IMG/VR virus record: IMGVR_UViG_3300033141_001232
Coordinates: 1-25,915 of that record
Reading direction: 5' to 3' (one strand)
DNA length: 25,915 nucleotides
From: a virus
Shown here: piece by piece, positions 5,328 through 23,121 of the stretch
Numbering within the stretch: position 1 is the stretch's first letter
How the letters are laid out: every line of letters starts with the position of its first letter
Program-made: the position numbers and the translations under genes
Notes under the pieces: generated by a model
Told to the model about the DNA's origin: nothing
The model's input: the letters and a program-made list of their open reading frames with translations, nothing else
The model's database searches: none

Positions 5328-5333
5328 TATAAT
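5328..5333 (+). promoter_or_regulatory. Possible -10 box upstream of the HUH initiator
   Basis: A perfect TATAAT lies in an AT-rich gap after the small ORFs, about 90 bases upstream of the initiator reading frame. No convincing -35 is present. A purely AT inverted repeat (TATTTA 5307-5312 with TAAATA 5319-5324) sits directly upstream. In DNA this AT-rich the match can be chance. Confidence 0.35.
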
Positions 5334-5425
5334 TAAAAGTGGTGAGAGAATCAAGAGGTATGAACTCTTATGGATTGCTCTCAGTGTGTTAAGTCTACCT
5401 GCATGGATTATCTAACGAGGAATAT

Positions 5426-6265
5426 ATTATATCTACTTATCCACAATATAGCAATAATACTCCCTACGATAGACTAAAAAGCATTAAGAAGCGAAACAAT
5501 GCCACTAGATTTGAATACTATCATCTTGCAAATAAATATAAACATCTACAAAAAAACCTCATCACGTTTACATATCTTGATACTGATCCATTTACTAAGC
5601 TCTCCATGATAAATGATATTCGTAACTATTTTAATCGGCTTGTAAAGAATACTAAGAACGATAATATAAAGTTTTTTAGTAATATTGAACTTGGAACTAA
5701 ATCAAAAAATCCTCACTTACATATTCAAGTATGGCATGATAATCAAAAACAGATAGATAATATATATAATAAGGTCATTGAAAGGTTTGGATTGTTTGTT
5801 GAGTTTTGCGATTTAGCTAAACAAAAAAGTGATGTTAAGATTTTTGAATATGTGATTAAAGATTATAGCAAGAGTATGAGTGATGATGAGTTATTGTCAT
5901 TAGATGATAGTAAGCGAGTTTTTAGAGGTGTATTAGAGAAGAAAATTAGATTTTCGAGTCATAGTAAGGGTAGATATACAAAAGCGGTTTATAAGAGCTT
6001 ATATAGAAAGTTTGATTTGAAGAAAAAAGATGTAGATTTGATGCTAGATAATAATGTTATTGATATTCGTGGACATGTTAATAGTAATGTTATTGAGTTT
6101 ATGTATTTAATTATAGAGATAATGCAAGTTTTAAGTCAAATAGATAACAAGAGTAGATTGAGTTGTCAAGTAATCCTTGACAACTTGAATTTAAGAGAAT
6201 TTCAATATCTAATCTTGTTTGAGTGGTGGACTTATGGGAAATATCGAAATAGTGATTTTATTTGA
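5426..6265 (+). CDS. HUH endonuclease / rolling-circle type replication initiator, start uncertain
   Basis: The three HUH-Rep motifs are visible. Motif I is LITFTYLD at 5558-5581. Motif II is HLHIQ, with histidines at 5714-5716 and 5720-5722. Motif III is EYVIKDYSK, with the candidate nicking tyrosine at 5849-5851 and lysines 3 and 7 residues later. Family members nick one strand and stay covalently bound through the tyrosine. The first ATG in frame (5606) lies after motif I, so it cannot be the real start. The frame is open back to a TAA at 5390-5392, and between that stop and 5606 it holds no ATG, GTG or TTG. I place the start at ATT 5426 only because GAGG (5417-5420) lies 5 bases before it. 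The alternative is a start at ATG 5360 (AAGAGG upstream, same frame) interrupted by the TAA. Confidence 0.62.
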   Translation: MISTYPQYSNNTPYDRLKSIKKRNNATRFEYYHLANKYKHLQKNLITFTYLDTDPFTKLSMINDIRNYFNRLVKNTKNDNIKFFSNIELGTKSKNPHLHIQVWHDNQKQIDNIYNKVIERFGLFVEFCDLAKQKSDVKIFEYVIKDYSKSMSDDELLSLDDSKRVFRGVLEKKIRFSSHSKGRYTKAVYKSLYRKFDLKKKDVDLMLDNNVIDIRGHVNSNVIEFMYLIIEIMQVLSQIDNKSRLSCQVILDNLNLREFQYLILFEWWTYGKYRNSDFI

Positions 6266-20184: not shown

Positions 20185-21395
20185 TATCTATCCAATAATT
20201 TCAAATCGCCATTTATAAAAAATGGATCAACAATATCGTTATTTATTAAAACTTCATCAACTCTTTCAATATTAATATATTTCTCCATAGTTAAATTTAA
20301 AATATCAATAGTTGCTACTATGGTATTATCCTTTAAATTTTGGAGTCCTGAATATTTTTGCGTATAAAATTGTATAAATTCTCTTTTTGCTAAATGATAT
20401 TTATCTAGTAAGTTTTGTTTAATTACAATTTCATCTATTGGATTATCAGAATCTACGATAACACTTTTTTCTAATATTTCCATTATTGATAAAACATCAT
20501 CTTTCACGCTTCCTAAATCGTCACCTGTATTAAAATCAATGTTTTCTAAATTCTTTATTGATGTTTGTGTCAATCCTGCGACAACTGTATTTATATAAGT
20601 TTGCGATTGTATATTTGCTGTTGTTTCTGCGGTATTTATGAAAGCTTCATCTATGCTTTGCTCGATAATCTCTCTTAAAGTATTTGTAAAGCTTTTTTGT
20701 TCATCTGCTCCAAACAAATCAGTATCTAAAACTTCATCAAAAGAAGTCCATATATTTACAATATCTTCTGATAAACTTTCTATTGATAATATAGCTGTTT
20801 TGATTTTAGCAATTATTCTTCCGATAGCTGTTTTTATATCTTGCAATGTATCACCAACATCTTCAATAAATTTAATTATGTCTAATATATCATTCCAAAA
20901 ATCTATAATATCACCAATAATAGTATTTCTTAATTCATCACCTATTTTATTATCGAAGTCATTAATGAAATTAAAAATAGCCTCTTCTCTTACATTCACA
21001 CTATAAACGATATCAAAATCTTCTACGACTTGATTTTCTGCTAATTTAAAAGTAACTTCAATATCGGCTCTTCCAAATCTCGCTATGCTTTCTTTTATAC
21101 TCCACTTATCAACATATACTTGCTGAATGCCATAAAATTTATCAATTAGAGTTCCGCTTGTTATATCTTCAAATGCTTCTCTTAATGCTTGTTTTTGAGT
21201 TAAATAATCATTACCGCCAATATAAGCAGATATTTTAAAAACACCATTTTCTATACCATTACTTTCTGTTTTTGTACCGCCATTAATAAATTTATGGTCT
21301 GTTAATCTTTGACCGCCAGATAATTCATCATCTCTTGTATAAAAAGGTATGCCTCTAAAAGAGGATTGATTTAATTGTGTAATATCGAAGCTCAA
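20184..21395 (-). CDS. Mu gpN-like tail/DNA circularisation protein
   Basis: 403 aa. The start is a TTG at 21395 inside TTGA, overlapping the tape-measure stop. The N-terminal domain (SSFRGIPFYTRDDELSGGQR, then GGTKTESNGIENGVFKI, ALREAFEDITSGTLI) is the DNA_circ_N domain. A coiled, isoleucine-rich middle (about 145-230) is followed by a less conserved end. Despite the family name, it is a tail component above the hub. No ATG lies close, so the TTG is reasonable. Confidence 0.8.
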   Translation of the reverse strand: MSFDITQLNQSSFRGIPFYTRDDELSGGQRLTDHKFINGGTKTESNGIENGVFKISAYIGGNDYLTQKQALREAFEDITSGTLIDKFYGIQQVYVDKWSIKESIARFGRADIEVTFKLAENQVVEDFDIVYSVNVREEAIFNFINDFDNKIGDELRNTIIGDIIDFWNDILDIIKFIEDVGDTLQDIKTAIGRIIAKIKTAILSIESLSEDIVNIWTSFDEVLDTDLFGADEQKSFTNTLREIIEQSIDEAFINTAETTANIQSQTYINTVVAGLTQTSIKNLENIDFNTGDDLGSVKDDVLSIMEILEKSVIVDSDNPIDEIVIKQNLLDKYHLAKREFIQFYTQKYSGLQNLKDNTIVATIDILNLTMEKYINIERVDEVLINNDIVDPFFINGDLKLLDR

Positions 21396-23121
21396 AATTG
21401 TTTCCCATCATTAAGAAATACATCTGTTTTTGTACTTCCTGTTGTCTCTACACCCTTAACTTTATTATCAACGATGCTAACATTAACTGCAACTGGTATA
21501 TTATTTACTGAATTTGATTGTATAGCTTGTGTTGCTAGTGCTGGTGCTATATTTGTAGTTGCAGTTTGATTTATTTCATTATCTCCAAATCCTAAAACAT
21601 CCCCAATTTTTCCAATACTTCCCAATATATCTGAAAAATTAAAACCTTTTAACATTTCCCATAATTTAAAAAATGTATCAGTCACTTTTTCCCAATTTTG
21701 ATATAGTGCTATTCCTGCTGTTGCTAACGCAGTGACACCAACAACTAATAAACCTATTGGATTTGCACTCATTATAAAATTAAAAGCTATCATCCCTACT
21801 TTTGCTATTTTTAAAGCTGTACTCATTGCTGTTATTGCAGGAGTTATTAACCACATTGCAGCGGTATATGCTAATGCTACAACTTTACTTGCAAGTAATA
21901 CACCTGCAAATATTCCAACTCCGGTTATTAGAGTTTCATTATTTTTAATAAAGCTTTGCATTGGTGTTGTAAGTGCTGTCATTGCTGTTGCCATACCTCT
22001 TACTAATGGAGTTAAAATACTCCCAAATGATATAGCCAATCCCTCAACTGCACTCATTAACTGCACGATACTACCCTCAGTAGAATCCATGCGAATTTTT
22101 GCCATTTTTTTAGCTACACCCTCTGAGTTTTGAAGATTTTTAAGCATCTTGTTAAAGTCTCCACTCGCTACTGCTTTACTTAAATTAATAGCTCCACTTT
22201 TGCTTTTTTACCTAGATTAAGCATTATCTTTTCCATTGGTAACATATTACCAGCACTATCAGAAGTTGCAATTCCAAGTTCTTTTAAAACTTTTGCACCT
22301 TCTGCTGCTGGACTTGCTAATCTTACAAAAGCATTTTTAAGAGCAGTACCAGCCATTGAGCCTTTAATACCAACATTACCTAATAATGCAGTTGCTGTTG
22401 TGATTCCCTCCATGCTTTGACCTGCTGCAATACCAATAGGTGCTGCAACTTTTAAAGTTTCAAATAGAGTCTCCATATCAACATTAGCACTTGAAGTTGC
22501 TGAGGCTAAAACATCTGCTAATCTTCCGCTATCTTTTGCTTGTTTTCCAAACGCTCCAAGTAAATCTGATAAAATATCTGATGTTCTTCCAAGCTCAGTT
22601 CCACTTGCTGCTGCTAAATCTAGTAATGAAGGCATTGATTTAAGTATTTGATTTGTTTTAAATCCAGCTTTTGCTAAAAAGATTTGACCTTCTGCAGCTT
22701 GTGTTGCACTAAAAGCTGTTGAAGCTCCTAGTTTTTTTGCTTGTTCAGATAACAGAGCCATATTTTTAGCTACCGGAACTGTTGAATCTGCACTACCAAA
22801 TGCCACTGCTTGTAAATCTTTCATAGATTGTTCAAATTTTATAGCCGGACTAAGTGCTGCTTTAAATGATAATGCAAGTGCTGCAATTCCTACTGCTTGA
22901 CTTCCTATATCTCTAGTGTTTCGTTTGATGTTTGCATTGACTCTATTTAATCTATTTTGAGCTTTTGAAATACTATTAATAGCTCTCTGTGTATTTGTTA
23001 AATCTTTATTTGTTTTTTTAGATTGATTACCAAGTTTAAGAAAAGCACCTGCTATTGAGCGTAATGGTTTAGTAGCACGATCTATTATTGATACTGATCC
23101 CTTTGCGCCTTTGAAACTCAT
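21392..23121 (-). CDS. Tape measure protein (TP901 type), split by a one-base frameshift
   Basis: Two adjoining frames make one protein. The first runs from ATG 23121 to a stop at 22180, with the TP901 core (SMKDLQAVAFGS, AFSATQAAEGQIFLAKAGF, SMEGITTATALLGNVGIKG). The second frame supplies LSKAVASGDF, LKNLQNSEGVAKKMA and hydrophobic segments ending in NPIGLLVVGVTALATAGIAL, before a stop at 21392. The frames join at an A6 run at 22204-22209 (minus strand). One extra base, or a -1 slip, restores 576 aa. At about 1.5 angstrom per residue this predicts a tail near 86 nm. A break in so essential a gene points to a sequencing or assembly error first, then to a real mutation. Confidence 0.78.

Follow-up and report, generated by a model that had tools for sequence, protein, structure and literature searches.

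An HUH replication initiator of tailed phages with a probable AUU start codon lying in the -10 box of a predicted antisense promoter

The replication initiator gene (rep) described here is probably translated from AUU, a very rare start codon, which here sits in the -10 box of a predicted antisense promoter; the transcript of this promoter would block translation of the Rep protein. The gene lies in a 25,915-nt stretch of viral DNA, referred to here as the window (IMG/VR record IMGVR_UViG_3300033141_001232, positions 1 to 25,915). On balance, we favor the wider proposal that one lineage of tailed-phage HUH initiators combines, in the same six base pairs, its start codon with the -10 box for an antisense RNA of its own, forming a plasmid-like copy-control switch of which the AUU start would be a consequence.

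The window belongs to a tailed phage: its minus strand encodes Pfam sheath, baseplate J, baseplate hub and tape-measure domains, and its plus strand encodes methyltransferases. Judged by sequence and predicted fold, its rep gene is an intact phage HUH (rolling-circle-type) replication initiator. Read from the AUU at 5426, the predicted Rep comprises 279 aa (5426..6265, plus strand; stop codon at 6263-6265). The preliminary description had placed motif I (LITFTYLD, 5558-5581), motif II (HLHIQ, 5714-5728) and the catalytic tyrosine of motif III (Tyr142, codon 5849-5851) in a single frame, and a frame listing confirmed this: all three share one plus-strand frame, which runs uninterrupted from 5393 to the stop codon at 6263-6265. 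The window protein matches Pfam family PF23343 (REP_ORF2-G2P) with E=5.3e-8 and 33.5 bits, against a cut-off of 27.8, and matches to this family at E<=0.01 were obtained for all 12 members of the protein family studied (the window and 11 aligned relatives). Residues T47-F48-T49, H97, H99, Y142 and K145 do not vary among these 12 aligned sequences. An AlphaFold2 model of Rep, computed with the 12-row alignment as input (mean pLDDT 79.9), has a strand at residues 42-49, a helix, strands at 82-88 and 97-104, a second helix, a strand at 128-132 and a helix bearing the tyrosine, which is the HUH (RRM-like) order, and carries an additional helix (residues 13-37) before motif I. The top match of this model in the PDB is entry 2x3g, which we take to be SIRV1 ORF119, a viral HUH Rep (Z 9.7, rmsd 2.8, 111 residues aligned, 18% identity); unrelated ferredoxin-like folds score lower, with Z values of 7-8.5. 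SIRV1 ORF119 differs from the window protein in being a single short domain from an archaeal rod-shaped virus. The HUH identity proposed earlier is thus upheld by both the Pfam matches and the best structural match, and the fold, the absence of which was to have counted against it, is seen in the predicted model. Foldseek searches with the model placed AAV Rep origin-binding domains at the top, weakly, and also matched microviral initiators; the weak tblastn matches of Rep were likewise to microviral replication initiators. No match for the window Rep was found in PHROGs or NCBIfam, and the plasmid collection searched held no relative of either the window Rep or the Rep of locus L031. With other PF23343 initiators, such as the filamentous-phage G2P type and microvirus VP4, the window protein has in common the HxH motif, Tyr-x-x-Lys and motif I, but here the initiator is carried by a phage with contractile-tail genes and is associated with an AUU start and an antisense element, neither of which was found on record for this family in the literature searched.

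Relatives of rep were drawn from IMG/VR by means of peptide patterns together with one DNA pattern for a conserved motif. The element described below is present in eight loci (the window, L002, L003, L017, L018, L027, L031 and L032), all of them from uncultured phages that are related to one another; because of this relatedness, counts over the eight loci are not independent and the P values given below are optimistic. Six of the relatives (L002, L003, L017, L018, L027 and L032) share the ATT-ATA start region of the window and are diverged, at 38-69% identity. Four further relatives, L026, L037, L019 and L020, have an ATG start.

A codon-by-codon listing of the window bore out the earlier observation that no ATG, GTG or TTG occurs in the rep frame from the TAA at 5390-5392 to motif I, the first such codon being the ATG at 5606. 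L002 and L003, too, have no standard start at all ahead of motif I; in L017, L018, L027 and L032 the frame does contain an ATG, 13 codons ahead of the TFT in motif I, but this ATG has no Shine-Dalgarno (SD) sequence and falls inside the conserved N-terminal helix. Initiation at ATG 5606 was rejected, as the codons upstream of it evolve as coding sequence. Over the 37 codons from DRLK to motif I, the window differs from L002 at 4, 1 and 10 sites in codon positions 1, 2 and 3, respectively (10 synonymous versus 3 non-synonymous changes), and from L003 at 5, 2 and 14 sites (16 synonymous versus 2 non-synonymous). From the ATT to motif I, the corresponding counts are 6, 2 and 17 for L017 against L018, and 7, 1 and 22 for L027 against L032. 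By this pattern of substitution, the stretch between ATT 5426 and ATG 5606 is truly coding. Homologs that begin at the 5606 ATG and lack motif I were to have counted against the earlier HUH reading, and a check for them did not refute it.

The start most likely lies at AUU 5426 (5426..5428, plus strand), because the relatives share its layout of an SD sequence followed by ATT-ATA. In the window, the SD sequence is GAGG (5417..5420, plus strand), and in the relatives TAAGGA or AAGGA; the two near-cognate codons ATT and ATA, of which the AUU is the first, are the sole candidates behind it. In seven of the eight loci the SD sequence is followed, after 4-5 nt in the alignment, by ATT-ATA in the rep frame, and no other candidate start has an SD sequence. 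The eighth locus, L031, has a GTG start with an SD spacing of 4; since the GTG is kept at the same spacing, SD sequence and start codon appear to move together. The AUA at 5429, codon 2 of the predicted reading frame, lies behind the same SD sequence and may be the actual start instead. In the six ATT-ATA relatives the frame opens only 3-33 nt before the ATT, and in L002, L003 and L017 an in-frame TAA overlaps the SD sequence itself (TAAGGA), so that there is no space for an upstream start. The preliminary description had offered three explanations for the missing standard start: an ATT start at 5426 behind GAGG, an ATG at 5360 cut off by the TAA through mutation, readthrough or error, and a -1 shift from an ORF beginning MDCSQCVKSTC. 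All of these features are present in the window as described, and the ATT start is backed by the same ATT-ATA behind an SD sequence in six homologs. The short ORF that would require readthrough (MNSYGLLSVC*, 5360..5392, plus strand), the first 24 bases of which fall within the antisense hairpin described below, and the out-of-frame ORF proposed for the frameshift (5370..5477, plus strand) have no counterpart in these six relatives, and because neither is conserved, readthrough and -1 shifting are unsupported. The earlier reading was thus sound as regards the ATT start and not as regards its two alternatives, and it missed the probable reason for the ATT, the putative antisense -10 box.

On the complementary strand, the first two codons of rep, ATT-ATA, read TATAAT, the -10 box of a putative antisense promoter (5426..5431, minus strand), and this hexamer is found in all eight loci. 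It is followed at a spacing of 17 nt in the window by a -35 box, TTGCTA (5449..5454, minus strand), and a -35-like hexamer occurs 17-18 nt from TATAAT on the minus strand in 8/8 loci: the hexamer is TTGACA in L017, L031 and L032, matches it at four of six positions in the window, L002, L003 and L027, and at three of six in L018. Under a sigma70 model, which is assumed for the host, the combined -10 and -35 score is 12/12 in three loci, 10/12 in four and 9/12 in one. Sites scoring 12/12 number only five in ~133 kb of phage DNA, both strands included, and three of the five are these rep loci. Antisense promoters scoring at least 10/12 were found at seven of the eight such rep starts, versus 2/136 SD-preceded ORF starts of the same records (P ~1e-9), and one of these two is the L031 rep itself; ATTATA occurs near the start in only 2/136 of the SD-preceded ORFs. 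The ATTATA motif was spotted before it was tested, making its count partly post hoc, and the -35 boxes, the terminators and loci L031 and L037 provide the fairer tests.

The ATTATA hexamer is invariant in eight genes with variable surroundings, and it appears to be conserved as DNA, because L031 retains it out of the rep frame. Alignment of seven antisense strands shows invariance chiefly at the -35 TTG, at TATAAT and at the complement of the SD sequence, and the amino acids encoded over the -35 box differ among homologs. The promoter is absent from the rep start of all four ATG-start relatives; of these, L037 was obtained after the idea had been formed and therefore constitutes a fresh test of the correlation between an ATG start and the lack of a promoter. 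The window copy is among the weaker ones, with a 4/6 match at its -35 box, a 4-base SD sequence and a U tract that begins 4 nt past the stem of its terminator. In the window leader, single-site promoter scoring found three promoters versus 2.4 expected in shuffled sequences, which is not unusual for AT-rich DNA; as this count is not above chance, the case for the antisense promoter rests on conservation. A role of ATTATA as a nicking site was also considered; no nicking site was located, and a promoter agrees better with what is seen at the -35 box and the terminator.

A transcript initiated at this promoter would run away from rep and end at an intrinsic-terminator-like hairpin, TGAGAGCAATCC...GATTCTCTCA (5343..5383, minus strand; -12.4 kcal/mol), which is followed, after a CCAC gap, by a U tract at 5335-5338. 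The predicted counter-transcribed RNA would be ~85 nt in length (5335..5419, minus strand), as deduced from the promoter and terminator, with a start uncertain by a few nt. The minus strand of 5330-5420 folds at -16.1 kcal/mol (z -2.05). In each of the seven loci whose upstream sequence is long enough, the antisense strand has a terminator-like hairpin with a T-rich tail, and the distance from the -10 box to the hairpin end is 61-93 nt. In a purpose-built terminator scan, with 600 random stretches of the same phages as the null, the hairpins gave single P values of 0.003-0.07, and the seven loci combined gave a Fisher P of 3e-7; the window hairpin by itself outscores 96% of the random stretches. 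The antisense side carries the more T-rich tract in 7/7 loci, although in the window the difference is a single base. A scanner based on a fixed terminator consensus gave no hit in the window leader, and missed this hairpin because it requires loops of 3-8 and a T-rich tail within 2 nt of the stem. Covariance models from Rfam matched no ctRNA family in the leaders of the window, L017 or L003. The predicted antisense RNAs measure 63-95 nt, with a 5' tail that holds the complement of the SD sequence (UCCUU or CCUC) and a 3' part formed by the hairpin. In L017, L018 and L031, the whole interval from the upstream ORF to rep is taken up by the antisense element.

From this conserved layout, which is observed directly, we infer that Rep is initiated at the AUU and that the antisense RNA is synthesized and represses it. 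In the proposed mechanism, Rep would be translated from AUU 5426, and codons 1 and 2 would double, on the opposite strand, as the -10 box for a promoter of the sigma70 type. That promoter would fire away from rep and yield a short RNA (~85 nt in the window and 63-95 nt in its relatives) ending at the intrinsic terminator, and the RNA would pair with the rep leader, hide the SD sequence and block Rep translation, by analogy with pMV158 RNAII. Such pairing and translational block are most likely, because the 5' tail covers the rep SD sequence and the 3' half is a terminator hairpin. Gene dosage would set the level of the antisense RNA, which would therefore exert negative feedback on initiation, and the weak AUU start would keep basal Rep low. 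The overlapping -10 box may dictate the AUU, as an ATG at this position would turn TATAAT into TATCAT, or the AUU may be an added restraint on Rep.

That antisense RNAs control rep genes is well established for plasmids. In plasmid pMV158, translation of repB is blocked by RNAII, an antisense RNA of 48 nt in which a 5' tail of 17 nt precedes a single terminator hairpin (PMC4485353). The predicted phage RNAs follow the same plan: they are short, combine a single-stranded 5' tail with one terminator hairpin and its U tract, and lie opposite the rep leader immediately before the start signals of rep. The target in both systems is an HUH rep. As with RNAII, the phage promoter would stand opposite rep and face away from it, and its RNA is predicted to be short and to end at an intrinsic terminator within the rep leader. 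The phage arrangement differs in that the rep start codon itself lies within the antisense -10 box, the RNA is predicted to be longer (63-95 versus 48 nt) and to cover the SD sequence, and the carrier is a tailed phage, for which repression is predicted from sequence. In contrast to pMV158, no copG-like repressor gene was noticed before rep in a non-systematic look. The OOP RNA of phage lambda is also a short antisense RNA with its own terminator that acts on an early phage gene (PMC5869508), but it overlaps the 3' end of cII, whereas the RNA predicted here faces the start of an initiator gene. In the literature searched, mainly papers available without subscription, we found no report of antisense control for a phage HUH initiator, of a -10 box doubling as a start codon, of an AUU/ATT start in phage or replication genes, or of counter-transcribed RNAs on phage initiators.

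Four other explanations of these observations were weighed. The least probable, and one to which we give very little credence, is that the window gene is damaged or mis-sequenced at the TAA at 5390-5392, or is expressed through readthrough or a -1 frameshift from the upstream ORFs. The window does contain both the ATG at 5360 and the -1 ORF at 5370-5477, but the six relatives likewise have no standard start behind an SD sequence, and they show in-frame stops shortly before the ATT and no upstream ORF from which to shift. A more substantial possibility, though still an unlikely one, is that the AUU start serves low, IF3-sensitive expression by itself and the antisense promoter is coincidental or non-functional. 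Two E. coli genes with AUU starts, infC and pcnB, differ from the phage rep in being chromosomal, and we know of no overlap of their AUU with an antisense -10 box. The AUU starts of infC (PMC9410913) and pcnB (PMC5472188) are real, limit expression and are held down by IF3, and the suitable spacing between SD sequence and ATT-ATA in seven genes agrees with such a function. The low-expression explanation gives no account of why codon 2 is always ATA, of the -35 TTG that is invariant across codon boundaries or of the retention of ATTATA out of frame in L031, and it leaves the antisense terminators without explanation.

Two further explanations assign other roles to the minus-strand signals. The promoter might make an RNA primer for complementary-strand synthesis, as part of a single-strand origin of the filamentous-phage or rolling-circle-plasmid type, and no translational regulator; single-strand origins use RNA polymerase, and Rep is of the HUH type employed in rolling-circle replication. 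We regard this as improbable, as a terminator-like hairpin and a U tract close every element, and as RNA synthesis would start at the rep SD sequence in all loci, which is needless for a primer; primer and regulator roles could nonetheless coexist in one RNA. Slightly less probable still is that the hairpin is a boundary terminator for leftward late transcription or for the end of the upstream gene, unrelated to any antisense RNA. Late genes do run leftward towards rep in the window and in the related phage G001, but a terminator for these genes would be expected beyond the 3' end of rep, the hairpin is present even in L032, which has plus-strand ORFs downstream of rep, and the T tract favors the antisense side in 7/7 loci. 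Antisense repression of an AUU-initiated Rep remains the reading that we prefer.

Several features of these loci bear on how the phages have exchanged DNA. In the rep tree, the ATG-start gene of L026 is placed among the ATT-start genes, on a fork that is not resolved. An HNH-like gene in L026 (3406-4002) ends across the start of rep, which has an ATG and no antisense promoter, and this is consistent with loss of the antisense element by insertion. The C-terminus of the L026 Rep (FEWWVYGKYRNSDFI) is almost identical to that of the window, though the two proteins are only 43% identical, a likeness that suggests recombination. The rep genes of L037 (3989), L019 (4953) and L020 (4953) have the N-terminal sequence MDSKNSNTI in common, and the core of the L037 protein is closer to the ATT-start genes; the leader and N-terminus may have been exchanged as a cassette along with the ATG start. 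The 19-kb contig of L014 (G002) has Rep as its only protein match to the window, and the initiator therefore occurs on unrelated phage backbones. Locus L004 (JAFCGI010000036.1), binned as a Pacearchaeota archaeon, is a clear relative of the window phage in its Rep C-terminus and tail-region proteins and looks mis-binned. Within the window, positions 1-1987 hold helicase and N6/N4 methyltransferase genes with ~76% DNA identity to Flavobacterium phages hattifnatt9-1 and snusmum6-1, while the remainder of the first 8 kb gives only short cytosine-methyltransferase matches; from sequence comparison, this segment is an exchange between distant phages. Two minus-strand ORFs of the window (21392-22147 and 22180-23121) match one single tape-measure ORF of G001, and the window tape-measure gene is therefore split by a frameshift or a sequence error.

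A practical consequence is that automatic annotation truncates these initiators: a gene caller restricted to ATG, GTG and TTG would begin the window gene at 5606, and motif I would be lost. If correct, the proposed switch would explain the conserved near-cognate AUU start of these rep genes and would represent two regulatory signals packed into six base pairs. It would also suggest that these phages limit their own initiation as plasmids do.
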